Part shown: one piece after another, positions 2,847-33,997 of the stretch
How positions within the stretch are numbered: position 1 is the stretch's first letter
How the letters are laid out: every line of letters begins with the position of its first letter
Source: Acidobacteriaceae bacterium
GTDB lineage: Bacteria > Acidobacteriota > Terriglobia > Terriglobales > Acidobacteriaceae
Direction of reading: 5' to 3'
NCBI GenBank assembly: GCA_003142935.1
Contig: PLOG01000140.1
Location: 1-34,333 of the forward strand
DNA: 34,333 nucleotides
Made by a program: the position numbers and the translations under genes
The notes under the pieces: generated by a model
Told to the model about the DNA's origin: nothing
The model's database searches: none
Seen by the model: only the letters and a program-made list of their open reading frames with translations

Positions 2847-4706
2847 CTACTTCCCCGATCCCTCGGCAATATTCACAATCCGGTCCACGCCCTGCGCATT
2901 AAAGTGCTCCACCTTGCCGCTGGGCCAGCGCACTTCAACGTCATCCACTTTAGTCGCCTGTCCAAGCCCGAAATGCTGCCGCGGATCGCTCGTTGAAGCA
3001 TAGCTGCCGCCACTCAGCACGTCGCCGCGTTGCTTCATGCCGTTCGCCGTCACATACACGGTGGCGCCCACAGCATCGCGCGGGCTTTTTGGCCCTCCCA
3101 CAAGCTTCAGCTCAACCCAATGATTCTTGTCCGCGGAAACATTGCGCAGAATTACCGGGTGGCCGTCCATCACATTGATCACCACATCCAGCTTTCCGTC
3201 GTTGAACAGATCGCCAACGGCCAAGCCTCGCCCAGTAATAACGTCCGCCAGTCCCGAGCCCTCAACCGCCGGGACGGTCTCGAACTTCTTGCCTCCCACG
3301 TTGTGGAAGAGCATCGGCCGCTCCGCAAAGCTCGTGCCCCACGCGTGCTGGTCCACCTGCGGATAGACATGCCCGTCGGCCATGATCAGGTCCTTCCAGC
3401 CATCGTTGTCGTAGTCGAGGAACGCGTTGCCCCAGCCAAGGAACGGCACCGAAATCTCTGCGATGCCGAGTTGGTAGCTGCTGTCCGTCAGATTGCCAGC
3501 GCCATCGTTGCGATAAAGCGGCTTGTAGTCGTCGGAAAACGTAGTATTGAACACGTCGACCATGCCGTTGTTCTCAAAGTCGCCTGCCGCAATGCCCATC
3601 GACGCAGTCTCGCGCCCGGCCTCATTCAGCGCATAGCCCGACTGGTAGCTGGCATCCTCAAAAGTGCCGTCGCCCTTGTTCAGGTAAAGATAGTTCGGCG
3701 TCGAGTCGTCGGCCACCAGCAGGTCCATCTTGCCATCGTTGTTGATATCCACAAACAGCGAAGCCAGCCCATAGTAGCCGGAAGTGTCGGCAACGCCGGC
3801 CTTCTCGCTCGCATCGGTGAATGTGCCGTCTCCGTTGTTATGGAAGAGATGGTCGGGCTCGCCTTTGAGGCCCCTCGGTCCGCAGTTCACCGGCACTCCG
3901 CGGAAGGTGCAGAACGTGTCGGGAACTCCGTTTTCGCCGCCCGACGGCAGGTTGTCGCGATCGAAGTGGACGTAGCCGGGCACAAACAAATCCAGCCGCC
4001 CATCGCCGTCGTAATCGCCCCACGTGGCTCCGGTAGACCAGTTGCCCAACTGCACTCCGGCTTTTTCCGCAACGTCCGTAAAGGTTCCGTCGCGATTGTT
4101 GTGGTAGAGCCGATTCTTGCCCCAGTTGGTCACGTAGATATCGGGCCAGCCATCGTTGTCATAGTCGGCAATGGCCACGCCAACACCCCACCGATCGTTG
4201 GTCACGCCGGCCTTGGCCGCCACGTCGGTAAAGGTTCCATCGTGATTATTGTGGAAGAGCGCCGCATGAGGCGGCGTCTCCTTTCCATCCAGCGCATCGA
4301 AGGTCGAGCCGTTCACCACGTAAATGTCGAGCCAACCATCGTTGTCGTAGTCGATCAGCCCCACGCCCGACCCGTTGGTCTCGATAATGTACTTCTTCTG
4401 CGGCGTGCCCATCTTATGGGTCCAGTGAGTCAGCCCGGCTTTCTCCGAGATGTCCTCGAAGACCACCGGCCCGGTCTTCACAAAACCGCCCGCGGTGATA
4501 GGCCGGTGCTGCGCATCGTATTGGGCCGCCTGCGGAGGTCCGGTATTCACGCCGCCGGCTGTAGGCGTCTGGGCGTCCTCTGAAGTCTTTTCGGATTGCT
4601 GCCCAGGGGAAGGCGTTGGGGAACTTGTGACTTGTGCGGAAAGGCCAACAAAAACACCTCCCGCTAGCAGTCCCAAAAGAGCGGCTGCGCGCAATGGCTC
4701 AAACAT
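2847..4706 (-). CDS. Secreted CRTAC1-family protein (FG-GAP/VCBS propeller plus ASPIC/UnbV domain)
   Basis: A 619-aa exported protein. The start is placed at 4706 because MFEPLRAAALLGLLAGG begins a normal signal peptide; the frame stays open to 4973, but that extension lies inside the next gene. After a Pro/Ser/Gln-rich linker come RPITAGGFV and GPVVFED, then about seven FG-GAP repeats with DxDxDG calcium-type loops (DYDNDGWLD, DYDNDGWPD, DYDGDGRLD, DINNDGKMD, a degenerate DFENNGMVD, DYDNDGWKD, DLFNDGKLD), which suggests a seven-bladed propeller. The last 90 residues are an ASPIC/UnbV domain (NHWVELKLVGG, HFGLGQA, VRWPSGK). A Cys pair (CTFRGVPVNCGPRGL) is shared with two paralogues at 28478 and 32045. 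It lies 68 bp after the 174-aa gene and may be read with the kinase cluster, or from its own -10-like site. Molecular role unknown. Confidence 0.9.
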   Translation of the reverse strand: MFEPLRAAALLGLLAGGVFVGLSAQVTSSPTPSPGQQSEKTSEDAQTPTAGGVNTGPPQAAQYDAQHRPITAGGFVKTGPVVFEDISEKAGLTHWTHKMGTPQKKYIIETNGSGVGLIDYDNDGWLDIYVVNGSTFDALDGKETPPHAALFHNNHDGTFTDVAAKAGVTNDRWGVGVAIADYDNDGWPDIYVTNWGKNRLYHNNRDGTFTDVAEKAGVQLGNWSTGATWGDYDGDGRLDLFVPGYVHFDRDNLPSGGENGVPDTFCTFRGVPVNCGPRGLKGEPDHLFHNNGDGTFTDASEKAGVADTSGYYGLASLFVDINNDGKMDLLVADDSTPNYLYLNKGDGTFEDASYQSGYALNEAGRETASMGIAAGDFENNGMVDVFNTTFSDDYKPLYRNDGAGNLTDSSYQLGIAEISVPFLGWGNAFLDYDNDGWKDLIMADGHVYPQVDQHAWGTSFAERPMLFHNVGGKKFETVPAVEGSGLADVITGRGLAVGDLFNDGKLDVVINVMDGHPVILRNVSADKNHWVELKLVGGPKSPRDAVGATVYVTANGMKQRGDVLSGGSYASTSDPRQHFGLGQATKVDDVEVRWPSGKVEHFNAQGVDRIVNIAEGSGK

Positions 4707-4713
4707 GAGAGAG

Positions 4714-4719
4714 AGTATA
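4714..4719 (-). promoter_or_regulatory. -10-like TATACT close to the CRTAC1 start (possible leaderless transcript)
   Basis: TATACT lies 7 nt before the ATG at 4706, with only CTCTCTC between them and no Shine-Dalgarno sequence. That spacing would place transcription start at or next to the ATG. No good -35 was seen, so this is suggestive only. Confidence 0.35.
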
Positions 4720-4774
4720 CGCTGGCCAATCAAGGAAGCTGAATCGACCGAAGGGTGGAGGTCGCCCTTCGCCG

Positions 4775-5299
4775 TTAGTCGCTGCCCAGCTTGTACGGAA
4801 TTCCAAACCGTCCAATCTGGATCATGGCCTTCTCCTCCGGCGGCCAGATATGCAGGCTCTCCAACCGGGTTGGATCCTTGATCCGGTGCGCATCCGTCGT
4901 GCCCACCAGCGCTCCCGTCGCCGCCACATTGAAGTGGACGCTCAATGTTTCTCCCGTCTCCGCGCGGGTCCATCCAAAAGCATACTCGCCCCGCTTCAGC
5001 AGGATGTCTCCAATCCGCACCGGCGCCTGCACGATCAGGTAGTGCGAGTATTTCCCGTCCGCCGAGTAGCCGGCGGTAATCAGCACCACTCCGGCGATAA
5101 AGTGGCCGCGCTCGTCCACGATGCCCGACGCGGTCCGCATCTCCGTCTCGATATGCTCATTCTCAACTGGAGCCCGCGACGGCAGCACCGAAGCCAGTTC
5201 CGCCGCTGTGGCTTGGCGCCATGCTGTCCGCTGCGCCGGAGCCTGGAACGCCAGCAGCGCAACAATCGATGCGCACAAAACCGCGCCCCTCATCCTCAT
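4775..5299 (-). CDS. Small secreted protein of unknown function, paralogue of the 9278 gene
   Basis: 174 aa with a signal peptide (MRMRGAVLCASIVALLAFQAPAQ). I do not recognise a named family. The mature part has a block TEMRTASGIVDERGHF...GYSADGKYSHYLI...PVRIGDILLKRGEYAFGW that lines up with TQLRNSSGI...GYSTGIQAKYQAYFI...PIQVAGQSLAPGAYGIGF in the protein at 9278, so the two look homologous. The start ATG overlaps the stop of the response regulator gene (ATGA, 5296-5299), which indicates translational coupling and shared expression with the kinase and regulator. A second ATG two codons in is an equally possible start. It could be a periplasmic partner or output of the system; that is inference from position only. 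Confidence 0.82.
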   Translation of the reverse strand: MRMRGAVLCASIVALLAFQAPAQRTAWRQATAAELASVLPSRAPVENEHIETEMRTASGIVDERGHFIAGVVLITAGYSADGKYSHYLIVQAPVRIGDILLKRGEYAFGWTRAETGETLSVHFNVAATGALVGTTDAHRIKDPTRLESLHIWPPEEKAMIQIGRFGIPYKLGSD

Positions 5300-16677: not shown

Positions 16678-16830
16678 ACAGGCTGCGGAAAAAGGACCGA
16701 GTTTGAACAGAGAACCCGAAAGGCTCTCCTCAGGGGCTAAAGCCCTCACTATTTTTGGCGGCATTTGGCACGACTGAAGTCGTGCCCTGACACTTATCCC
16801 AGTTCCGGCAAGAGTTTTTCCGCAGCCTGT
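16678..16830 (+). repeat. R1 palindromic repeat, copy A, with perfect 16-bp terminal inverted repeats
   Basis: ACAGGCTGCGGAAAAA (16678-16693) and its exact reverse complement (16815-16830) bound a 153-bp unit holding the R1 modules CAGGGGCTAAAGCCC, GGCACGACTGAAGTCGTGCC and GACACTTATCCCAG. The arrangement looks like a small non-autonomous mobile element (MITE). No clear target duplication was seen at its edges. Confidence 0.75.
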
Positions 16831-18849: not shown

Positions 18850-19054
18850 GCTTGTGAGGCGGCCGGACGCATGGGGTCTGTTTCTTCAGGCTGAAGGCGT
18901 GGGAGAGAATTGCGCAGGGTGCGGAGCCGGCAAATAGGCCTTCACAAGAGCGTCTTTATAGATGGGACTTCTTTTTCGATGTGACTAACACCAGGTTTAT
19001 GACTGAGTAATTTTGCGGGTTGACTGTATACTGTCCCAGGACTGAGGATAAATG

Positions 19055-19137
19055 TCTCCATCCCACGGACGAAGACCTTTCCGTGGGGACCCTGGACCTT
19101 GGGCACCCCGCGTTGTTACAACAACAAGCGGTCAGGG
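19055..19137 (+). repeat. Diverged R2 repeat
   Basis: Shares GGGCACCCCG.GTTG.TACAAC and a CGGTCAG end with the R2 units at 22414, 22521 and 28357. The hairpin is kept with different arms (CCCACGG 19062-19068, CCGTGGG 19081-19087). It lies in the 522-bp gap between purS and the 19358 gene; no gene is seen in the rest of that gap. Confidence 0.55.
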
Positions 19138-19357
19138 GCCAAAGGCGAGGGCACTAATGATTACTAAAGCGTATTACTGAACAAGGTAACATTCCCAGAA
19201 TGCATCAAAACAGGTGAAGATCTTCTAATGTTTCCCGTAAAGGGAGGCAATAGAAGTTCGCTGCTTTTGGGGGGACAATTCCCTGTATTTCAAACAAGAA
19301 ATGCTGAATTATTTCAGTAGTGGCTAACCATGAGCACTGCGGGAGCTGAGGATACTT

Positions 19358-22180: not shown

Positions 22181-22413
22181 GAGCCTGTTTCATAGCCGGC
22201 TTGTTGCGCCGAAAAACATTCCCTCCGGGGCTAAAGCCCACGCTATTTTTGCGGCATTTGGCACGACTGAAGTCGTGCCCTGACACTTATTCCAGCTCCA
22301 ACAAGAGTTTTTCCGCAGCCCGTAACGCCCGCGATTTTCTTGTTCCGTATCGGCACGGCGACCCGGTACCCCGGCCTTGCCGTTTCAAAACCAGATTATG
22401 AAACAGCTTCTAA
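22181..22413 (+). repeat. R1 repeat, copy B, extended form
   Basis: CTGTTTCATA (22185-22194) and its exact complement TATGAAACAG (22397-22406) bound the unit. Inside, in order, are CGGGGCTAAAGCCC, GGCACGACTGAAGTCGTGCC, the GAGTTTTTCCGCAGCC segment also ending copy A, and a CGTAACG...GGCACGGCGACCCGG module also found in copy E. It is followed without a gap by two R2 units. The 21993-22646 gap holds only these repeats plus the possible permease promoter. Confidence 0.75.
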
Positions 22414-22520
22414 GGCTCTGACCGCATGATTTCGTGCCTTGAATTTCTGCTATCCCAGGTCCCAAAATCGGGACCTGGGGCACCCCGAGTTGGTACAACT
22501 TCAATCGGTCAGAAACCTAG
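22414..22520 (+). repeat. R2 repeat, unit 1 (107 bp)
   Basis: Starts GGCTCTGACCGCATGATTTC and ends CGGTCAGAAACCTAG, so TCTGACCG forms an inverted repeat at the two ends. The core is a 10-bp perfect hairpin: CCCAGGTCCC (22454-22463), loop AAAATC, GGGACCTGGG (22470-22479). GTTGGTACAAC follows. It is tandem with unit 2 and nearly identical to 28357-28463. Confidence 0.85.
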
Positions 22521-22620
22521 GGCTCTGACCGCATGATTTCGTGCCTTGAATTTCTGCTATCCCAGGTCCCAAAATCGGGATCTGGGGCACCCAGAGTTGG
22601 TACAACAACACGCGGTTAAA
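22521..22620 (+). repeat. R2 repeat, unit 2 (100 bp, 3' end altered)
   Basis: Directly follows unit 1. Its second hairpin arm is GGGATCTGGG (22577-22586), a change that keeps pairing in RNA as a G-U. The 3' end differs (ACAACAACACGCGGTTAAA) and lacks the AACCTAG terminus. It ends 26 bp from the stop of the GH127 gene, which is convergent with it. Confidence 0.8.
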
Positions 22621-22646
22621 GATCCAGTTTGTTGCAAACCGGGGTG

Positions 22647-24737
22647 CTAGACGCGGGTGTACGGAATCCAAACCTGCATTGCCGAACGCGAACGATTCGC
22701 CCATGCATAGTAAGGAATCAGCTTGAGCGTTGTGCGAGTCTCTTCGAGCGGGCGGGATTCCCCCGCGGTGAAGTAGAGCGAGTTCGAGGCAGAAGAGGGC
22801 GCAACGGTCCCGGAATGTTCAAGCACCATCACTCCGTCGAGCAGATCCGGAACAAAGCGGCTCTCTGAGCTGGCTGCAACCTCCGCGCGACAATTACTGA
22901 ATCCGCTCTGCTGCACCGCGTCCGGTTGATCCAGCATTTCCATACAGAAGACAATGGGCCCGCGCTGAAATGCGACGCGGCCACGATCTTCAGCAACTGC
23001 CGGATTTGCTTTGAGCAGTTGCACGGCCATATCGAAGCGAAGAGCGATGGAGTCGCCGGACGACCAGCGCCGGCGGATAGCGAGATACTTGCCCGGCTCG
23101 ATTCCCGAGACCGGCGTTCCGTTTACCATCGCCGTGTTCTTCAGCGACCAGCCAGGAATTCGAACATAGACCGTAAAGTCGCGCGCCTGCTCGGGAGAGA
23201 CGGAGATATCGACTTCACCATCCCATGGATAATTCGTCTTCTGCTCGATGCGTAATGCGGTTCCGTCTTCCAGCCGCCATGATATGCGGGAATTATCGTA
23301 GAGGTGCACATAGACGCCGTCAGCGGCGGTCGAGTAGAAATAACCCGGGAGCTCGGCGAAGGTCCGCTCCAAATTGGGCGGGCAGCAGGTGGTGTCATAC
23401 CAGGGGTTGCGAATCTTGCCCTCCGGATCCTCCGAGTACCGGGAGTCGCCGGATGGATCGAATGCCAAGGGGTTGCGATAACAGTAGGTTGTTCCGTCAA
23501 GCGACATTCCGGAGTTGATGCCGTTCAAGAGAGCGCGCTCCATGACGTCGGCGAACTTGGCATCGCCGGAGGCCGCGAGCATGCGCCAGTTCCACATCAT
23601 GTTGCCGATTGCCGCGCAACTCTCGCCATAGGCGCGGGCATTCGGCAATTCGTACGGGTCGCCGAAAGCCTCGCCTTCCTGGCGCGCGCCGACGCCACCG
23701 GTCACGTAAAGCTGGTGCGAAGCCAGATCGTCCCAGAGCGTGTTGAGGGTCTTCCAGTAGGCCGGATCTCCGGTTTCAAGATAGTAGTCGGTTGCGCCGC
23801 AGCAGGCGTACATGGCTCGCACCGCGTGGCCCTCGAGCTTGGTCCGTGAAGGGAAAGGAATGCCGCAGAACATATAGGAGACTTGGCTGGACCGCAGAGG
23901 GATCCGCTCATCTCCGTGGAGAATATAGCCGGCGAGGTCGACGTATTGGCGTTTCCCCGTGGTGCGATAGAGCTCGATGAGCGCCATCTCGATTTCGGGG
24001 TGGCCGGAGACAATACCCATTTGATTCGCACCGGGGCCATAGTTCGGAATAAGGAAATTGTCGACGAAGCGAATGCCGGCATCGAGAAGAGTCTTGTCGC
24101 CCGTGGCGCGATAGTAGGCGATGGCTCCCTGAAGCAGATGGCCGATGCAATAGAGCTCGTGCCCGGTGGTCTGGGTTGGATACTGCATGCGCAGCGGCTT
24201 CCGGTCTTCGACGTAGTAGGTGTTCAGATAGCCGCCCGGCTCCTGGACCGCAACCACATCGCGGATCATCGAATCGGCAGTCGCCCTGAGTTCTGGTTGC
24301 TGGCCGGACTGGAGCGCAAACGCAGCGCCTTCCAGCCACTTGTAGATATCGGAATCCGAGTAAACGGGGCCTTGTTGCGGCGCGGAGGATTTGCCGGCGA
24401 GGCGGAGAAAGTTGTTCATTCTCCCGTGCGCGATCAATTGGACGTGCATTGAAGGGATACTCGATTGAACATTGGTGGCGCGGCGTTTTGACCAGAAGCC
24501 ATCCTCGATCGTCACTGCGCTGACAGGCACGGGCTTGAGACGGGCGAAGGGCGATTTGGAGAAGTCGGCGATGCCTGCGTTCCTCCACGCTGCGCCCGAT
24601 GCTTCGCTTGCGTTCCGCGTGGGGGCCAGCAGAGCGAGCAAGTCTGCTGCATTGGGCAACGGATGCGCAACTGCCGGTGTAACGCAAGACGCTGCGGCGG
24701 CAGCGAGGAATTTGCGGCGAGAGAACTTTGAGTTCAT
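22647..24737 (-). CDS. GH127-family beta-L-arabinofuranosidase, Tat-exported
   Basis: 696 aa. GH127 enzymes remove terminal beta-L-arabinofuranose from arabinan-type glycans and plant glycoproteins using a zinc-bound cysteine nucleophile. The start at 24737 is supported by AAGGAG (24745-24750) 7 nt upstream and a twin-arginine signal (SRRKFLAAAAAS). The key sites of the family are in place: acid/base Glu in EGEAFGDPYELPNARAYGESC (about residue 356), Zn ligands Glu and Cys in GESC (about 372-374), and the nucleophile/ligand pair in DTTCCPPNLERTF (about 451-452). An all-helical barrel is followed by beta-rich C-terminal domains (VYVRIPGW). The gene lies downstream of GH31 in the same direction, with a decayed gene in the 335-bp gap; the old frame of that gene now supplies the ribosome site. 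Confidence 0.92.
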   Translation of the reverse strand: MNSKFSRRKFLAAAAASCVTPAVAHPLPNAADLLALLAPTRNASEASGAAWRNAGIADFSKSPFARLKPVPVSAVTIEDGFWSKRRATNVQSSIPSMHVQLIAHGRMNNFLRLAGKSSAPQQGPVYSDSDIYKWLEGAAFALQSGQQPELRATADSMIRDVVAVQEPGGYLNTYYVEDRKPLRMQYPTQTTGHELYCIGHLLQGAIAYYRATGDKTLLDAGIRFVDNFLIPNYGPGANQMGIVSGHPEIEMALIELYRTTGKRQYVDLAGYILHGDERIPLRSSQVSYMFCGIPFPSRTKLEGHAVRAMYACCGATDYYLETGDPAYWKTLNTLWDDLASHQLYVTGGVGARQEGEAFGDPYELPNARAYGESCAAIGNMMWNWRMLAASGDAKFADVMERALLNGINSGMSLDGTTYCYRNPLAFDPSGDSRYSEDPEGKIRNPWYDTTCCPPNLERTFAELPGYFYSTAADGVYVHLYDNSRISWRLEDGTALRIEQKTNYPWDGEVDISVSPEQARDFTVYVRIPGWSLKNTAMVNGTPVSGIEPGKYLAIRRRWSSGDSIALRFDMAVQLLKANPAVAEDRGRVAFQRGPIVFCMEMLDQPDAVQQSGFSNCRAEVAASSESRFVPDLLDGVMVLEHSGTVAPSSASNSLYFTAGESRPLEETRTTLKLIPYYAWANRSRSAMQVWIPYTRV

Positions 24738-24739
24738 CT

Positions 24740-25072
24740 TGAATCTCCTTGCGATTTTCCGTCGGGCTGGATGAACTTGCCCGGAATATTGACAAAGTAG
24801 CCCTGAACCCCAAAATCCTTGAGATAGCCAACCATGCGTCACGGGCCAGCCACTTTTTCGGCTTCAAGAATCATTGTGCTCATGGTTTGCGTGCTCAGCC
24901 ATCCATCGGCAACGCAGATCAGAAACCTGTCCAGAGCGAAATTATAGGTGATAGCGACGCTGCCGAAATGGTTTTTCCACTCCAGCATCGGACTCAGGTC
25001 CTGAAAGCGGCGCGACTGCGGACCATCGCTTCTCGGCTTTAATAGCAACGAAATCCTCGGCAGCGGGATCGC
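24740..25072 (-). pseudogene. Decayed C-terminal fragment of a secreted protein, with nonsense codon
   Basis: Read on the minus strand, codons in the GH31 frame after its TAA give RRFQDLSPMLEWKNHFG, AITYNFALDRFLICVADGW, MSTMILEAEKVAGP, a TGA stop, then RMVGYLKDFGVQGYFVNIPGKF, IQPDGK. The protein-like pattern continues in the same frame through the stop, so the TGA (24839-24841) is probably a mutated Trp codon (GPW). The start is missing, and the 3' end is cut where the GH127 ribosome site begins. From memory it resembles the end of a large secreted protein family in Acidobacteriota and Planctomycetes (LxxWxNHFG...YLMCVTDGW); I cannot name it with certainty. It is not expected to be functional. 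Confidence 0.7.
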
Positions 25073-27499
25073 TTAACGCCCAACGATTTTGACGATACTG
25101 GTGTCGGATCCGGTCCAGGCTTCGGCCCCTTCGTGGGTCAACTGCCCGGCCATATCGTTCCAATGCAAATGCGTGATCTGGGAATCCCCCTTTTCATAAG
25201 CGTAGGTTTTTCCGTCGTCGTTAAAAAGGGTGAAGTCGCCATCTTTGCCCGGATAGACAAGCACACGGGCAATCGATTGCGGTTCCTGGGTGCTGAGGAT
25301 CCGGGACCCGAACGGGACGATCGATCCCACGCGGACGAAGAGTGGAATGGTGTCGATGGGCGCATCTGCGTCAACCGTCTGGCCGCCCTTCAAACGCTCG
25401 TTGGTCCAGTAGTTGTACCAGTCGGTCCCGACCGGCAAATAGACCTTGCGGCTGGTCGCACCTTGCTCGGTGACCGGCGCAACCAGAAAGGCCGGACCGA
25501 ACATGTACTCGTCGCCGATGGCGGCCACGTTCGGGTCACCCGGAAAATCCATGAACAGCGCCCGCATAAAGGGCGCACCCGTGGTGTAGCTGAAGTAGCC
25601 GAGAGAATAGGTGTACGGCAACAGCTCGTAGCGCAAGCGCAGATACTTGCTCAGAATGGCCTCGGCCTGCTTGCCGTACGCCCAGACCTCGTTGTGCTGC
25701 CTCTCTCCGTGAGCCCGCATCACCGGCTGGAATGCGCCCCATTCGAACCAGCGCACGAACAGCTCGGGGTAGTCTTCGTAATTGCCCACGTTCTCTATTG
25801 CATCCGAGGGGTCGACCAACGGTTTGTGGGCCGCATGGTAGGTGGAGGGGATAATGGGCGAGAAGAAACCCGCAATATCCGTATCCCAGTAGGGCATGCC
25901 GCTGGCGGTAAAACCCAGTCCGGTGGGCACGGAGCGTTTCAGCATGTCCCAGGTCGACATGATGTCGCTGGACCAGAACACGGTGCCGTTCCGCTGCGCT
26001 CCAAGGTATGCCGCGCGGGCAAGGGAAAAGACCCGGCGGCGGTCTCCGAAGTCGCGCCGCGAACCCTCGTAAACCGAGGCCGTATGAAACAAGGGATAGA
26101 CATCGTAATAGCGTGTCCCTGAGCCTACGTAGAAGAAGTCGTTGATTGGGTCGATGTCCGGTTCCGTTTCATCGAGCCAGATGTAATCGAAGCCATACGG
26201 CTTTTCGTAGCGGTCTCTGATTGCCTCCCACCACCACTTGGCGGCGGCCGGATTAGTGGTGTCGATGTTGGGGCCGATTACGTCTTTGAAGCCACCGAAA
26301 TCGGGAGCGCCATCCGCGGTATGAATGAGCCAGCCCTTTTGGCGCAGCATGTCGTAATATCGCGTGCCGGGAGAGAAATGCGGCCAGACGCTCAGCAGCG
26401 TCGCGATGCCCATGGAATGAAGCTGTTTGTTCATTGCGGCTGGGTCGGGCCAGCGAGCGGGGTCTAGATCCAACTCGCCTTGCCTGGTCATGTTCAGGAA
26501 GTCCACCACCAGCACATCGAGCGGCAGGTTGCGGTCGCGATATCCCTTCGCAATGGCCATGATCTGGTCTTGCGTGGGATAGATGGCCTTGCTCTGGATG
26601 TAGCCATATGTGGCCTTGGGCAACATGTGGGTGACGCCGGTGAGCTGGCGATAGCCCTGGTAGATCTCGTCGCTGTTATCGCCGGAGATCACAAAGAAGG
26701 AAACACGGTCTCCCACCTCGGATGACCAAACGTTGCGCAGGTTGACACTCAGGTCGATGGTGGTCTTGGAGGGATTGTCCCAGATCAGGCCGTAGTTGCG
26801 GCTGGACACCATGAAAGGAACGCAGACCGTCTCTCCACCGATTGAGGTGTATTCATGCCAGCACTCGATACGCTGCTCACGGAGGTCGAGAAAACCCTGT
26901 TGGTGCTGGCCCAGCCCGTAGTAGTGCTCATCGAGCGGCGCGTCGAAGACAGCCGAAACCCGGTAGCCGGGATCTGCCTTTTGCCCGCTTTCCGCGCTCG
27001 CGGGGGACGCTGCCGGCCGGTTATGCCTCATGGACCAGTTCTTCATTGTCAGAAGCGGCTTGCCGGACGCCGTTGTTATAGAGATCGTGTCGTCGTGAGG
27101 TCCATTGCTGGGAGGATTGCCGCCGAAATAGTGTTCTCTGAGCGAATTATTCAACTCGTCGAGCGGCATAGCATGAGGCGGGGGGAGGTTCTGTGGGGCC
27201 ACACGGATGACCATTCGCCCCGAGCGAATCACGTCGTATCCGGCAGAATCCTGCTCGTGGGTCCATCCAGTCATCGACGGCGTGGCCACGAACCCATACC
27301 CGGCGGCCGCGAGGGCTGCGGAATTATCCGAGCTCAAGGTGATTCGGACGATATTGGGCGCGTACGGTTCCAGCACAACAGTCCTGCCCTGGCGCGACAA
27401 CACAATCTGCGCATCCGCGCTCCAGACAGGCCGGCACTCGAACAAGAGAACCGCCAAAATGACCGCAACGAAGCCTCTACGAACGAAAACTTCTAACAT
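25073..27499 (-). CDS. GH31-family glycosidase, alpha-xylosidase/alpha-glucosidase type, secreted
   Basis: 808 aa. The start at 27499 is supported by AAAGGAG 8 nt upstream and a signal peptide (RRGFVAVILAVLLFECRPVWSA); the frame runs open to 27700 without support. An N-terminal beta-sandwich (AQIVLSRQGRTVVLEPYAPNIVRITL) precedes the catalytic barrel. The nucleophile is Asp443 in YIWLDETEPD and the acid/base Asp512 in VFWSSDIMSTWDML, with YGYIQSKAIY and DVLVVDF as substrate-site blocks. C-terminal domains (GPAFLVAPVTEQGA, FTLFNDDGKTYAYEKG) complete the protein. The nucleophile context xDExEP fits the alpha-xylosidase-like branch that acts on xyloglucan, but alpha-glucosidase activity cannot be excluded. 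With GH127 downstream it suggests side-chain removal from hemicellulose. The gene is complete, with all catalytic residues. Confidence 0.93.
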   Translation of the reverse strand: MLEVFVRRGFVAVILAVLLFECRPVWSADAQIVLSRQGRTVVLEPYAPNIVRITLSSDNSAALAAAGYGFVATPSMTGWTHEQDSAGYDVIRSGRMVIRVAPQNLPPPHAMPLDELNNSLREHYFGGNPPSNGPHDDTISITTASGKPLLTMKNWSMRHNRPAASPASAESGQKADPGYRVSAVFDAPLDEHYYGLGQHQQGFLDLREQRIECWHEYTSIGGETVCVPFMVSSRNYGLIWDNPSKTTIDLSVNLRNVWSSEVGDRVSFFVISGDNSDEIYQGYRQLTGVTHMLPKATYGYIQSKAIYPTQDQIMAIAKGYRDRNLPLDVLVVDFLNMTRQGELDLDPARWPDPAAMNKQLHSMGIATLLSVWPHFSPGTRYYDMLRQKGWLIHTADGAPDFGGFKDVIGPNIDTTNPAAAKWWWEAIRDRYEKPYGFDYIWLDETEPDIDPINDFFYVGSGTRYYDVYPLFHTASVYEGSRRDFGDRRRVFSLARAAYLGAQRNGTVFWSSDIMSTWDMLKRSVPTGLGFTASGMPYWDTDIAGFFSPIIPSTYHAAHKPLVDPSDAIENVGNYEDYPELFVRWFEWGAFQPVMRAHGERQHNEVWAYGKQAEAILSKYLRLRYELLPYTYSLGYFSYTTGAPFMRALFMDFPGDPNVAAIGDEYMFGPAFLVAPVTEQGATSRKVYLPVGTDWYNYWTNERLKGGQTVDADAPIDTIPLFVRVGSIVPFGSRILSTQEPQSIARVLVYPGKDGDFTLFNDDGKTYAYEKGDSQITHLHWNDMAGQLTHEGAEAWTGSDTSIVKIVGR

Positions 27500-27978
27500 C
27501 CAGCTTTCTCCTTTACCACTTGTCCATATTTGGGAACCCCGAGTGCCGCTTGAAGAACCGAGACAGATGAAGCCAGCACCAATGTGGCCTGTCTGGCAGA
27601 GCCGGTACTGACGGACCGTGATTATCCTTCGGGCGACGCCCCACTCGCCCTCTCCGAGCGCGGGATGGTTACGAACCGTCACGCGCCAACCGTCGGTCAC
27701 CCTCCTTTTATCAATGGAAGTATTTGCTCCTCCTAACCTGGGACCTTTTTCCCGGTTACCAACCCCCTCTGAAGGCTATAAACGGAGATAAGAACCTCCA
27801 TTCCACCCCCATTGAAAGATGGATTACCGGGTCAGCTAGGAGTTTGATTCCCGATAACGAAGCTGGCAAGTAACACACAGTATTTTTTACGGTGTGTCTA
27901 ATAAAAAACAGGGTTCCGAATGGACCTGGATTGAATGATTAGCGGGAAGGTGCGGCGAGGATTGTGGTAATAAATTCA

Positions 27979-28017
27979 GCAAGTTAGCGTCCGCTTCGCG
28001 GACATGGCAAGTTAGCG
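27979..28017. repeat. Hairpin flanked by 11-bp direct repeats in the GH31/CRTAC1 gap
   Basis: GCAAGTTAGCG occurs at 27979-27989 and 28007-28017. The first copy overlaps, by one base, and the second follows a hairpin with arms GTCCGC and GCGGAC around TTC (27989-28003). The rest of the 27500-28255 divergent gap shows no gene; it must contain the GH31 promoter, but no convincing -35/-10 pair was found. Confidence 0.5.
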
Positions 28018-28255
28018 GGTTGGCGGCGGCATTGCCAAGCACAGTTTCATACCCCGCGGGTCGGCGAAGCCGGTGGACGACTGACACATTTTGGGGTCTC
28101 AATAGAATTTTGCAAGAGGTTCAACTGCTGAAAGATTAAGATGCGCCTGCCTTGGTGACCTGCTGGAAATAATCGACATTGACCACTCTGTCTGCTGTTA
28201 TTATGCGGCTCATGCACAGCCATAAGAATGACCAAAGCGTCTTTCAAGAATGACA

Positions 28256-28356
28256 GACGCATTCCCTCAGGGGTTAAAACCCCTCAATTTTCCTGGCTTT
28301 TCGGCACGACTAAAGTCCTGCCCCGTTACAAAGCGGTTTTTTGAAACACTCTCTGG
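28256..28356 (+). repeat. R1 repeat, copy C
   Basis: AGGGGT-TAAA-ACCCCT (28269-28284) replaces the AGGGGC...GCCCCT of copy G, so both stem arms changed together. GGCACGACTAAAGTC follows, then GCGGTTTTTTGAAACACTCTC at the 3' edge, and an R2 unit begins at the next base. Confidence 0.7.
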
Positions 28357-28463
28357 GGCTCTGACCGCATGATTTCGCGCCTTGGATTTCTGCTATCCCA
28401 GGTCCCAAAATCGGGACCTGGGGCACCCAGAGTTGGTACAACTTCAATTGGTCAGAAACCTAG
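28357..28463 (+). repeat. R2 repeat, unit 3 (107 bp)
   Basis: Same length and ends as unit 1 (GGCTCTGACCG to CGGTCAGAAACCTAG), differing at only a few bases. Hairpin arms at 28397-28406 and 28413-28422 are perfect. It ends 14 bp before the chosen start of the CRTAC1 gene and so forms its immediate upstream region. A reading frame runs through it into the gene, but the repeat also occurs outside any gene. Confidence 0.85.
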
Positions 28464-28477
28464 ATGGAGAAGTTCTC

Positions 28478-30325
28478 TTGCACGTTCGCGGTTTAATCTG
28501 TAGCGCATTGTTGATCCGCCTTGCGGTGTGCGCCGCGGGCCAGACTCAGGAACCTGCGCAACCCGCACAAGGCGGGATGGGCGGAGGCATAGCGTCGGCC
28601 GGCGTGTTCGCTCCCGTTTACGACGAACATCGGCGACCCATCACCGCGGGCGGATTCGTTGACAAAGGCCCAGTAGTCTTCGAGGACGCGACCAAGGCGG
28701 CGGGGCTCTCGGGCTGGCGCCATGAGATGGGCACGCCGCAGAAAAAGTACATCCTGGAGACCGATGGCTCAGGTGTCGGCTTGATCGATTACGACAACGA
28801 CGGCTGGCTCGACATCTACCTAGTGAACGGCTCAACCTACGACGCACTCAGCGGCAAGCGCACCCCTCCCCACGCGGCGCTCTTCCACAACAACCACGAC
28901 GGAACCTTTACCGACGTTGCCAAAATGGCGGGAGTCACCAACGACCGCTGGGGATTCGGCGTGGCGATCGGGGATTTCGATAACGACGGATGGCCCGACA
29001 TATTCGTGGCAAATTTTGGCAAGAACCGGCTGTACCACAACAACCACGATGGAACCTTCACGGATGTGGCGGAAGAAGCAAGGGTCACTCTGGGCAACTG
29101 GTCGAAAGGCGCAACCTGGGGCGACTACGACGGCGACGGCCGTCTCGATCTTTTCGTTTCCGGTTACTTGCACTACGACCTGAACAATCAGCCAAGCGCG
29201 GAGGACGGCGCAGCCTCCACTGCACACTGCCAGATGCGCGGTGTGCCGGTGATGTGCGGCCCGCGCGGGCTGCCCGGCGAACCGGATCACCTGTTTCATA
29301 ACAACGGCAACGGCACGTTTACCGATGTGAGCGAACATGCCGGGGTTTCCGATTCCGACCGGTTCTATGGATTCACTGCGATTTTTGTCGACGTGAACAA
29401 CGATGGCAAAGTGGATCTGCTTGTCGCGAACGATTCCGAGCGCAATTATCTCTACATCAATAAAGGGGACGGTACCTTCGACGACCAAAGCTATATCTCC
29501 GGTTTTGCTTTCAACTACGATGGCCGCGAGATAGCCTCGATGGGTTTGGCCGTCGGCGACTACCTGAACAACGGCCGGGTCGACGTGCTGGACACGGACT
29601 TCTCGGACGACTACAAGGCACTCTATCGAAACGACGGAAATGCCACTTTTACCGACGTTTCCCGCGAGGCAGGCTTCGCTCAAATTGCTGTTCCCTTTGT
29701 GGGCTGGGGTGACGGCTTGATCGATTACGACAACGACGGCTGGCTGGACATGATGATGATCAACGGGCACGTTTATCCGCAGGTGGACGAGCACGATTGG
29801 GGCACAACCTATGCCGAGCGTCCCTTGCTGTTTCACAACAACCACCATGGCAAATTCGAATACGTGCCGCCGGTGAAGGGATCGGGGCTGGCGATAGTCG
29901 TACCGGGGCGCGGCGCTGCATTCGGAGACCTTTTCAACAACGGCAAAATCGATGTGGTGATCAATCCTGTCGACGGTCCACCAGTGCTGCTGAAGAATGT
30001 GAATCAAGACCATCACCACTGGGTGGAGCTCAAATTGGCAGGCGGCCCGAAAAGCCCACGCGATGCAATCGGCACCACCGTCTATTTGACTGCAAACGGG
30101 ATGCGCCAGCGCCAGGACGTGATGAGTGGAGGAAGCTACATTTCATCCAACGACCAACGTCCTCACTTCGGCCTGGGCGATGCAACCGACGCCGGAACCG
30201 CAGAGATTCATTGGCCGTCCGGCCACATCGAAAAGGTCAAACTTCCGGCTGTGGATCGAATCTTCACGATCACCGAGGGACAAGGCATAACAGGAGTCTT
30301 GTGCGCCCCACAACCGTGTTCCTGA
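28478..30325 (+). CDS. Secreted CRTAC1-family protein (FG-GAP/VCBS propeller plus ASPIC/UnbV), second copy
   Basis: 615 aa from a TTG start at 28478. This start is chosen because GGAGAAG (28466-28472) lies 5 nt upstream and the codons after it make a short signal peptide (HVRGLICSALLIRLAVCAAG); the in-frame ATG at 28382 lies inside an R2 repeat and would give an unrelated N-terminus. The mature part has RPITAGGFVDKGPVVFED, seven FG-GAP repeats with DxDxDG loops (one degenerate: DYLNNGRVD), the Cys pair in CQMRGVPVMCGPRGL, and an ASPIC/UnbV end (HHWVELKLAGGPKSPRDA, HFGLGDA, IHWPSGH). It adds a tail GITGVLCAPQPC not present in the first copy but shared with the third. A TPR gene and a third copy follow in the same direction. 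Confidence 0.87.
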   Translation: MHVRGLICSALLIRLAVCAAGQTQEPAQPAQGGMGGGIASAGVFAPVYDEHRRPITAGGFVDKGPVVFEDATKAAGLSGWRHEMGTPQKKYILETDGSGVGLIDYDNDGWLDIYLVNGSTYDALSGKRTPPHAALFHNNHDGTFTDVAKMAGVTNDRWGFGVAIGDFDNDGWPDIFVANFGKNRLYHNNHDGTFTDVAEEARVTLGNWSKGATWGDYDGDGRLDLFVSGYLHYDLNNQPSAEDGAASTAHCQMRGVPVMCGPRGLPGEPDHLFHNNGNGTFTDVSEHAGVSDSDRFYGFTAIFVDVNNDGKVDLLVANDSERNYLYINKGDGTFDDQSYISGFAFNYDGREIASMGLAVGDYLNNGRVDVLDTDFSDDYKALYRNDGNATFTDVSREAGFAQIAVPFVGWGDGLIDYDNDGWLDMMMINGHVYPQVDEHDWGTTYAERPLLFHNNHHGKFEYVPPVKGSGLAIVVPGRGAAFGDLFNNGKIDVVINPVDGPPVLLKNVNQDHHHWVELKLAGGPKSPRDAIGTTVYLTANGMRQRQDVMSGGSYISSNDQRPHFGLGDATDAGTAEIHWPSGHIEKVKLPAVDRIFTITEGQGITGVLCAPQPCS

Positions 30326-31961: not shown

Positions 31962-32044
31962 GTTTTGCATACGCAACGCGCCAAGGCGGAGATCATCAAT
32001 TGATAACAACTGGAGTTCATGTTACTTTCAACGACGGACATGGT

Positions 32045-33997
32045 ATGGCAAAACGCATTTCGATCGAGTCCGTGATGCGGAGATTGCTATCGTTGCGAAA
32101 AGCGCGCCTGGTTCCCGGCATTCTTGGTATGGCCGTTTTTCTGCCTATGGTTTGCCACGCGCAGCAGGGGCAACCCCCTTCACAACAAGGCAGCGGGATG
32201 AGCGGGATCGCGTCGAGCGTGATAGCGGCGCCGGTCTATGACGAAAAGAGACGGCCCATCACCGCGGGAGGATTCGTGGACAAGGGGCCGGTCGTCTTCG
32301 AAGACATTACCAAACAGGCTGGGCTTTCCAACTGGATCCACAGGATGGGAGTGCCTGAGAAAGAGTTCATCGTCGAGGCCAACGGCTCTGGAGTTTGCCT
32401 GATCGACTACGACAACGACGGCTGGCTCGACATCTACCTGGTCAACGGGTCGACATTCAAGGCGCTCGATGGCAATGAAACTTCACCGCACGCCGCGCTG
32501 TTTCACAACAACCACGATGGCACCTTCACCGACGTAAGCGCTCAGGCAGGAGTAGAAAACGATCGCTGGGGATACGGATGCTCAGTGGCTGATTTCGACA
32601 ATGACGGCTGGCCCGATCTTTTTGTGGGGAACTTTGGGAAGAATCGCCTCTACCGAAACAATCACGACGGGACTTTCACCGATGTGGCGGAGAAAGCCGG
32701 CGTCGCGCTGGGCAACTGGTCAACAGGCTCGGCGTGGGGTGACTACGACGGCGATGGGAAATTGGACCTTTACGTGGCCGGTTATGTGCACTTCGATCGC
32801 GTTCTGGCTGAAGCGCTGGCCAAGGATGCGTCCAACTCCGCCTGCCTTTACCGGGGTTTCCCGGTCAACTGCGGTCCTCGCGGACTGCCCGCTGAACCCG
32901 ATCACCTCTTCCATAACAACGGCGACGGCACATTCACCGATGTAACTGAAAAAGCCGGCGTCGAAGACAAAGGCCCTTTCTACGGGTTCACGTCCATCTT
33001 TGTTTCACTGAACGGAAACGGCCGTCCCGATCTTGTCGTCGGGAACGACTCGGAACCCAATTATTTCTATCGAAACAAAGGTGACGGTACTTTTGAAGAT
33101 CAAAGCTACGTGTCGGGACTCGCGTTCAACAAAGAGGGACGCGAGATCGCATCCATGGGCATTGCCGCGGGCGATTACGAAAACAACGGGCTGATCGATT
33201 TTCTCATCACCGACTTTGGCGACGACTACAAAGTTCTGTTTCACAACGATGGCGAAACCGGCTTTACCGATGTCAGCTATGAGGCCGGGATCGCGCAAAC
33301 GGCAATTCCGTTTGTCGGCTGGGGCGACGGCTTCATCGACTACGACAACGATGGCTGGCTCGATCTGTTCATGGCCAACGGGCACGTATATCCCCAGGTC
33401 GACCAGCACGACTGGGGCACCACCTTCGCGGAGCGGCCGCTGCTGTTTCACAACGTACCCGATCGAACCGGAAAGGGACGCAGATTCGAATACGTTCCTC
33501 CGGTTACAGGCACGGGGCTGGCGGTGACGATTCCGGCGCGCGGCTCGGCCTTCGGCGATCTGTTCAACGACGGCAAAATCGATGTGGTGATCAATCCCAT
33601 CGATGGCCCGCCGGTGTTGCTGCGGAATGTCAATCCCGACCATCATCATTGGGTTGAGGTTAAGCTGGTGGGCGGCCCCAGGAGCCCGCGGGATGCGACT
33701 TGCGCAACGGGGTATCTCGCGGCGAATGGAATTCGTCAACGGCAGGATGTCCTGGCCAGCGGCAGCTACATTGGTTCGAACGACCGCCGGCTGCACTTTG
33801 GCCTGGGAGACGCATCCGATCCGGGTAGGATCGAGATCCACTGGCCCTCCGGCAGGAAGGAGACGGTCAAGCTTCCTGCTGTCGACCGAATTTACACAAT
33901 CACTGAAGGCGTGGGCATTACTGGCGAACTATGTGGCGGAAAGCCCTGCGCAGAACACGGAGTGGCCGGAAAGACAGCGCCGCACGTAAAGCCCTAG
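32045..33997 (+). CDS. Secreted CRTAC1-family protein (FG-GAP/VCBS propeller plus ASPIC/UnbV), third copy
   Basis: About 650 aa. The start is uncertain: ATG 32045 (MAKRISIESV) is chosen; TTG 32000 has GGCGGAG 8 nt upstream, and ATG 32075 (MRRLLSLRKARL) gives the tightest signal peptide before AVFLPMVCHAQQ. Then follow GMSGIASSVIAAPVYDEKRRPITAGGFVDKGPVVFED, which is close to the second copy, and seven FG-GAP repeats. Two calcium-type loops are altered (SLNGNGRPD, DYENNGLID). The Cys pair (CLYRGFPVNCGPRGL), ASPIC/UnbV domain (HHWVEVKLVGGPRSPRDA, HFGLGDA, IHWPSGR) and tail GITGELCGGKPC are present. It is last in the CRTAC1-TPR-CRTAC1 row and more similar to the second copy than to the first, so a local duplication around the TPR gene is likely. 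Confidence 0.88.
   Translation: MAKRISIESVMRRLLSLRKARLVPGILGMAVFLPMVCHAQQGQPPSQQGSGMSGIASSVIAAPVYDEKRRPITAGGFVDKGPVVFEDITKQAGLSNWIHRMGVPEKEFIVEANGSGVCLIDYDNDGWLDIYLVNGSTFKALDGNETSPHAALFHNNHDGTFTDVSAQAGVENDRWGYGCSVADFDNDGWPDLFVGNFGKNRLYRNNHDGTFTDVAEKAGVALGNWSTGSAWGDYDGDGKLDLYVAGYVHFDRVLAEALAKDASNSACLYRGFPVNCGPRGLPAEPDHLFHNNGDGTFTDVTEKAGVEDKGPFYGFTSIFVSLNGNGRPDLVVGNDSEPNYFYRNKGDGTFEDQSYVSGLAFNKEGREIASMGIAAGDYENNGLIDFLITDFGDDYKVLFHNDGETGFTDVSYEAGIAQTAIPFVGWGDGFIDYDNDGWLDLFMANGHVYPQVDQHDWGTTFAERPLLFHNVPDRTGKGRRFEYVPPVTGTGLAVTIPARGSAFGDLFNDGKIDVVINPIDGPPVLLRNVNPDHHHWVEVKLVGGPRSPRDATCATGYLAANGIRQRQDVLASGSYIGSNDRRLHFGLGDASDPGRIEIHWPSGRKETVKLPAVDRIYTITEGVGITGELCGGKPCAEHGVAGKTAPHVKP

Follow-up and report, generated by a model that had tools for sequence, protein, structure and literature searches.

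R2, a miniature inverted-repeat element with CTAG-type flanks and varying hairpins in an acidobacterial genus

The 34,333-nucleotide contig PLOG01000140.1 of an Acidobacteriaceae bacterium (assembly GCA_003142935.1; 5.2 Mb in 219 contigs, of which this is contig 97), referred to at its full length as the window, contains three short units and one long relative of a repeat designated R2. A sequence-only reading had described R2 as a mobile-looking 107-bp unit that has inverted ends and a hairpin preserved by paired changes. It had also joined R2 with a second repeat, R1, into one composite element, and had proposed to search this and related genomes for R2, to compare R1-R2 junctions and to look for empty sites in relatives. 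The mobile character, the inverted ends and the paired changes were supported. The results reported here make it quite probable that R2 is a miniature inverted-repeat transposable element (MITE) that a DDE transposase with a preference for CTAG moves in trans and that carries exchangeable hairpins resembling repetitive extragenic palindromes (REPs).

According to this proposal, a DDE-type transposase supplied in trans would recognise the inverted ends of R2 and insert the element at CTAG or near variants (CTAA, TTAG, CAAG), with duplication of four bases. The middle of R2 has a strong REP-type hairpin and a GCACCC tag, like those flanking Y1 (HUH) genes of the REP-associated tyrosine transposase (RAYT)-like type in the genus, and the ends are kept through the genus with the hairpin varying by species and by copy. 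Because CTAG is rare in this DNA and often holds a TAG stop codon, many R2 copies lie directly at gene ends. Since the duplication can give each side its own stop codon, insertion at a gene end need not break the gene. R2 may also affect mRNA ends.

Distribution and ends of the R2 family

The similarity among R2 units far exceeds chance. BLAST with the 107-base R2 query returned 51 matches in the window genome (G000) at E<=7.3e-5, and 40 of 116 first-look candidates from that genome were scored. A profile search over the fetched loci gave 98 hits, reduced to 72 full-length, non-duplicate copies (40 in the window genome, 32 in relatives) by dropping partial hits and duplicates. Seventy of these were free of N (61 short, 9 long), and 57 of the 61 short copies formed the alignment A1. 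The search proposed by the sequence-only reading thus yielded a family dispersed through its own genome and the genus: R2 matches were found in 35 of 36 genus genomes, that of the window included, and in none of 24 genomes outside it, with many genus matches covering the central hairpin alone. A core-plus-flank pattern matched eight contigs of named genomes, all acidobacterial. The end motif was present in 32 of 59 genus genomes, and a reversed control pattern gave one hit across all.

The A1 consensus reads CTAG-GTCTCTGACCGCATGATTTCGTnCC...hairpin...GGTACAAnATCAAGCGGTCAGAGAC-CTAG, with conserved terminal inverted repeats (TIRs) GTCTCTGACCGC...GCGGTCAGAGAC and weaker similarity about 30 bp inward. 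The pair TCTGACCG/CGGTCAGA previously recognised at the ends is present, but the inverted repeat of the family is longer. Most R2 bodies measure 100-146 bp and fall into a short form of approximately 103 bp and a long form of approximately 145 bp, the latter with an additional inner hairpin. The 107-bp units at 22414-22520 and 28357-28463 begin where they had been placed, each comprising a 103-bp body and a 4-bp right flank, and the proposed partner of the first is a direct tandem copy at 22521-22627. The relative noted at 19055-19137 is indeed diverged R2 kin, and represents the right part of a long-form body. Tandem copies have one four-base word in common, CTAG in the window and CCAG in an array (L038; G000:C108:10227-11667) of three long-form copies with a period of 148 bp. 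R2 is therefore short (within 70-300 bp), non-coding, multicopy and bounded by TIRs, as MITEs are.

In the window, R2 had appeared to start exactly at the end of R1, and the two had been regarded as one composite element. R1 palindromes do precede units 1 and 3, ending 134 and 34 bp before them; an exact junction is no property of the family. An R1 palindrome lies within approximately 400 bp of five of the 40 full-length copies in the window genome (four places; 18, 34, 109, 134 and 241 bp), that is, at five different distances, and is absent from this range in the other 35. R2 is bounded by its own ends and CTAG. The sequence-only reading had held that a composite would be refuted if R2 occurred mostly without R1 or with differing junctions, and by its own standard the idea falls, leaving a composite extremely improbable. 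Six more R1 palindromes occur in 90 kb of other loci from this genome, some of which overlap. R1 is a separate dispersed repeat and no part of R2.

Flanks, gene ends and candidate mobilisers

The commonest flank among the 72 copies is CTAG (32 left, 39 right); the left flanks of window units 1, 2 and 3 are CTAA, CTAG and CTGG. Left and right flanks were equal but other than CTAG in six copies, compared with 1.6 in shuffles (p=0.0027). These pairs are CAAG, CTAA, TTAG, CTAC, CTCG and CCAG, the last in a tandem array and hence non-independent. Flank equality after inversion was at chance (2 vs 2.0, p=0.61).

An empty site was found for one copy of the window genome, L044, where CTAG-element-CTAG stands between two convergent open frames, one ending in TAG and the other, judged by its ending, probably encoding a 2-oxoacid dehydrogenase beta subunit. 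With the element removed, the joined flanks align with genome G022 (L341) through the junction (query 44-255, 72% identity); in G022 both flanks meet at a single CTAG, and no element is present. A single CTAG at an orthologous element-free site points to a 4-bp target duplication; it is the strongest evidence for such a duplication, and insertion in the lineage of the window genome is the simple reading of the difference. The junction comparison covered 14 of the matched loci. Both genes of the site align in G034 and G025, where the junction has additional bases but lacks the element, and the alignment of G019 (L329) spans the right-hand gene only; matches other than those of G000 and G022 lie within the right-hand gene and the bases adjacent to the junction. 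R2 thus has the target duplication of a MITE at one site, with a flank test that is weaker in a larger set, and the duplicated word is of the YTAR/CTAG kind expected of an IS5 or IS701 derivative. A test for open frames across the joined flanks (75 of 95 joins open) was set aside as uninformative in GC-rich DNA.

CTAG is also enriched around R2. Its density is 3.47/kb in the 40 bp outside element ends vs 0.55/kb away from elements, a 6.3 times difference; the 24 words concerned lie at 18 of 94 copies. For seven further palindromic words, the frequency near the ends is 0.63-2.1 times that in the whole loci, the highest being TTAA (0.87 vs 0.41 per kb). Copies in L018, L022, L023 and L051 adjoin short CTAG-rich stretches (in L023, CTTCTAGCTGCTAGCTTCTAG), which look like landing zones.

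Placement at stop codons was assessed for flanks of 300 bp or more that had the word CTAG, CTAA, TTAG, TTAA or CTGA. The flanking TAG, TAA or TGA was the in-frame stop of an open frame of at least 90 codons at 40 of 98 flanks, compared with 10 and 17 in the other two frames (p=1.2e-5 against one third). These counts are limited by the dependence between both flanks of an element and by the high frequency of open frames in GC-rich DNA. The tendency is shared by CTAG sites of the background (in-frame stops at 38 of 130; 19 and 17 in the other frames), so stop-codon placement largely follows from the target word.

Candidate mobilisers were sought among DDE transposases. In the window genome, 17 PF01609 and 4 PF13358 loci as well as PF13546 loci were considered and rejected for want of a convincing pair of R2 ends. 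An R2 copy is present in DDE locus L072, and an R2 remnant lies near that of L054. The PF13546 elements of the genus, which we take to be of the IS701 type, are flanked by CTAG, CTAA or TTAG, and their target word fits; their ends, TACTACTGTGTTATA or TACTACAGTTGTA, are not those of R2, and they were rejected as the mobiliser. Five such elements (L133, L135, L136, L300, L301) have ends TACTACTGTGTTATA or close to it and flanks CTAG or CTAA. As for the matching ends that would identify an IS5 or IS701 parent of R2, those of the PF13546 elements differ, and the PF01609 loci of the window genome that were examined had no convincing pair. Since no DDE locus examined had a convincing pair of R2 ends and PF13546 elements sit at CTAG-type words with other ends, the mover would most likely be a DDE transposase of the IS5 or IS701 type that prefers CTAG. 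The end pattern was hit 11 times in viral contigs, in no case accompanied by a second end at two mismatches; one contig (L226) has CTAGGTCTCTGACCGCATGA near base 107, close to the contig edge, possibly an R2-type end in a phage.

Several observations weigh against R2 being a MITE moved by such an enzyme to CTAG-type targets. In a set of 95 candidate frames the excess of equal flanks is weaker (6 vs 2.4, p=0.02; with within-genome shuffles, expected 2.6, p=0.027), and total flank identity exceeds shuffles for both direct (p=0.0002) and inverted (p=0.006) pairing. This set includes at least one chance match, a "frame" at window positions 26213-26391 inside an open reading frame (ORF), which was removed before the analyses of CTAG density, stop codons and hairpin variants, and a small number of further chance frames could still be present in those sets. 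Flank variation is partly asymmetric, as CCAG is frequent on the left and CTGG on the right. Only one empty site was found, and it may reflect either insertion or precise loss in G022. The gene end at the L044 site has a further family member terminating nearby in G019 (L329), with a CCTTTCGCC-type hairpin, so this position has been occupied repeatedly or over a long period. Stop-codon placement of elements does not differ significantly from that of background CTAG sites (40/98 vs 38/130, p=0.09). No convincing inverted pair of R2 ends surrounds the 17 PF01609, 4 PF13358 and fetched PF13546 matches, and no insertion-sequence-sized pair of end motifs was seen among the matches listed.

Central hairpins, their variants and the window copies

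The 10-bp stem CCCAGGTCCC/GGGACCTGGG described by the sequence-only reading is present with a six-base loop in all three window units, and the C-to-T change in unit 2 (GGGATCTGGG) gives a G-U pair in RNA, as had been stated. Consensus folding of A1 retained the central stem only, with 10 pairs, five of them with changes on both sides; the largest paired change, C-G to U-A, occurs in 13 of 57 sequences, and the covariation term is small (-0.45 kcal/mol). Single window units fold end to end (z -6.4, -4.9 and -5.0), and folding of the long window copy does not surpass that of shuffles (z -0.6). The stable folds of the three units (z -4.9 to -6.4), the both-side changes at 5 of 10 stem pairs and the frequent placement at stop codons would also be consistent with R2 being maintained chiefly for its hairpin, as a functional RNA or a terminator at gene ends, with dispersal secondary. 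This appears quite improbable, given that the hairpin sequence differs completely or is lacking within conserved ends, that the long copy lacks a stable fold and the window has no Rfam match, and that the position bias does not significantly exceed that of CTAG sites generally.

The core hairpin of R2 is of the type that flanks Y1 genes. A scan for the core by sequence found it at 2 of 20 Y1 loci of the genus and 3 of 8 in the window genome. A detector designed after that scan, combining a stem with a GGGCACC-type tag, found hairpins at 13 of 28 Y1 (RAYT-like) loci (5 of 8 in the window genome, 8 of 20 in the genus), or 12 of 28 once a weak hit at L015 was removed. The latter is a 7-bp stem away from the gene, with a diverged tagged hairpin nearer to it. 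Such hairpins were found at none of 20 offset controls (20 kb away on the same contigs), at 1 of 21 DDE loci of the window genome and at none of 19 PF13546 loci, some DDE loci overlapping; the lone DDE match is probably the R2 copy in L072. In eight Y1 loci (L013, L014, L016, L176, L186, L187, L189, L191) an outward-facing hairpin stands on each side of the gene, the REPtron/TIRtron arrangement described in sections of PMC3733652. The GTAG or GTGG foot of GTAG-type REPs is absent from the core in the window genome, which has the GCACCC tag. Beyond hairpin and tag, the Y1 flanks in L014 and L016 have another motif with CCACCCGCC at its end, which might pair with the 5' arm as an alternative.

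From this resemblance, the whole unit might be REPIN-like or TIRtron-derived, moved as single-stranded DNA by a Y1 (HUH) transposase, and the CTAG at either end would be its cleavage tetranucleotide instead of a duplicated target. Hairpin and tag match those beside Y1 genes, some Y1 flanks run on into GGTCAGACCTGG or a like sequence, which is similar to the R2 right end GGTCAGAGACCTAG, and Y1 matches occur in 34 of 41 genomes searched. We nevertheless regard this origin as unlikely: the equal non-CTAG flanks and the single-CTAG site point to a 4-bp duplication, and no Y1 locus of the window genome has a convincing pair of R2 ends. To our knowledge, IS200/IS605-type transposition does not make 4-bp duplications.

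The same ends were found around other hairpins in a survey of frames free of N. In G025 (L230-L234) the usual R2 ends enclose CCCACCCATGCGGC/GCCGCATGGATGGG and GCACCC, and one further copy (L235; G025:C1:17300-22300, 2510-2576), with inverted ends flanked by CTAG, lacks the hairpin between two CACCC words. The ends enclose a GTAG-footed double hairpin in G031 (L238, L241, L244) and a stem of the CCTTTCGCC or CCATTCGCC type in G076 (L247), G023, G065 and L074 of the window genome; in G063 the stem is lengthened to 16 bp with one mismatch. Conversely, core hairpins of G005 and G002 had no pair of R2 ends in all nine loci inspected, and neither genome had an end-motif match at one mismatch. In G034 the core hairpin lies inside variant ends, CTAGTACCGTGACCG. 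The same ends with other hairpins, and cores without ends, indicate that ends and hairpin are separable.

The hairpin difference could have arisen through REP movement, deletion between short repeats or in-place change; exchange by REP insertion and excision rather than change in place may account for it. It is possible, if doubtful, that the R2 frame is a chassis that repeatedly loads and unloads REP hairpins of each species' own Y1 transposases, joining two transposition systems. In that case, the frame may acquire a stable centre, and the hairpin a second way of spreading.

Coordinates of the window features are collected in Table 1. The mechanical start of ORF 28382-30325 falls inside R2 copy 3, and its true start is probably downstream of the element. 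This ORF and two other large ones, 2847-4973 and 32000-33997, are mutually similar, with DNDGW-type repeats, and are presumably ASPIC/UnbV-like.

Table 1. R2 copies, their flanks and hairpins, and R1-type palindromes in the window.
Feature	Position	Strand	Remarks
R2 copy 1, MITE body	22414..22516	+	103 bp; inverted ends GGCTCTGACCGC...CGGTCAGAAAC
Left flank of copy 1	22410..22413		CTAA; candidate target-site copy
Flank common to tandem copies 1 and 2	22517..22520		CTAG; candidate target-site copy
Central hairpin of copy 1	22454..22479	+	10-bp stem CCCAGGTCCC/GGGACCTGGG
Tag directly 3' of copy-1 hairpin	22480..22485	+	GCACCC; also in hairpins beside Y1 transposase genes
R2 copy 2, tandem MITE body	22521..22623	+	103 bp; right end decayed
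Right flank of copy 2	22624..22627		CCAG
R2 copy 3, MITE body	28357..28459	+	103 bp
Left flank of copy 3	28353..28356		CTGG
Right flank of copy 3	28460..28463		CTAG
Central hairpin of copy 3	28397..28422	+	
Diverged long-form R2 copy	18995..19139	+	145-bp body
Inner hairpin of long-form copy	19062-19069 / 19080-19087		different stem, CCCACGGA/TCCGTGGG
R1-type palindromes	2680-2699, 2771-2790, 16767-16786, 22260-22279, 28303-28322		GGCACGACTnAAGTCGTGCC, up to 3 mismatches

Comparison with known systems

Correia elements occur in two size forms, which those of R2 resemble. RUP, Correia and ERIC elements target TA; unlike them, R2 has a CTAG target with a 4-bp duplication, and a hairpin heart that varies by species within conserved ends. 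R2 also differs in its ends from the local PF13546 (IS701-type) elements, though both are flanked by CTAG-type words, and nothing tying IS701 to YTAG was found in the literature searched. For IS5, the portion of PMC5493358 consulted gives duplication of Py-T-A-Pu, mostly CTAG, with E. coli target words comprising CTAG 15 times, CTAA and TTAG three times each and CAAG once among 24; these four words also occur at R2 flanks.

Bacterial MITEs (RUP, NEMIS, ERIC, Nezha and others) are described in sections of PMC3733652 as 70-300 bp long, without coding capacity and with inverted ends, often lying beside coding sequences and having robust secondary structure. R2 is like them in its size, lack of coding capacity, inverted ends, position adjacent to genes and robust structure. 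In REP/RAYT and TIR-associated Y1 transposase (TIRYT) systems, Y1 transposase genes are flanked by hairpins or TIRs capable of dispersal, and the acidobacterium Koribacter has three TIRYT genes, the TIRs of one of which form a repeated family (PMC3733652 and PMC6006769, each in part). R2 departs from these systems in its DDE-style inverted ends and target duplication, and its core in the window genome is without a GTAG foot. Closer in architecture are the REP dimers inside palindromes of A. variabilis (GTAG-15) and H. neapolitanus (CGTC-1), in which, as in R2, REP-type hairpins stand in the middle of a longer palindrome (PMC3733652, in part). The section of that paper describing them reports that REP-less palindromes were not found and mentions no target duplication; the R2 frame, unlike theirs, encloses hairpins of several families and, in one copy, no hairpin at all.

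No earlier report of R2 was found in the literature searched, which had most subscription journals outside it and included part of PMC10969869, and that literature held few reports of such elements in Acidobacteria. The occurrence within a genus of several hairpin families in a single conserved MITE frame, along with placement of CTAG at stop codons, appears new. R2 adds a repeat family common to a genus of soil acidobacteria and a MITE with a target word that coincides with stop codons, including one instance of a CTAG end common to two convergent frames. The same ends with one hairpin, another, a third or none provide a natural series for testing the spread of REPs. R2 works like a MITE, and its core is like a REP/TIRYT repeat.

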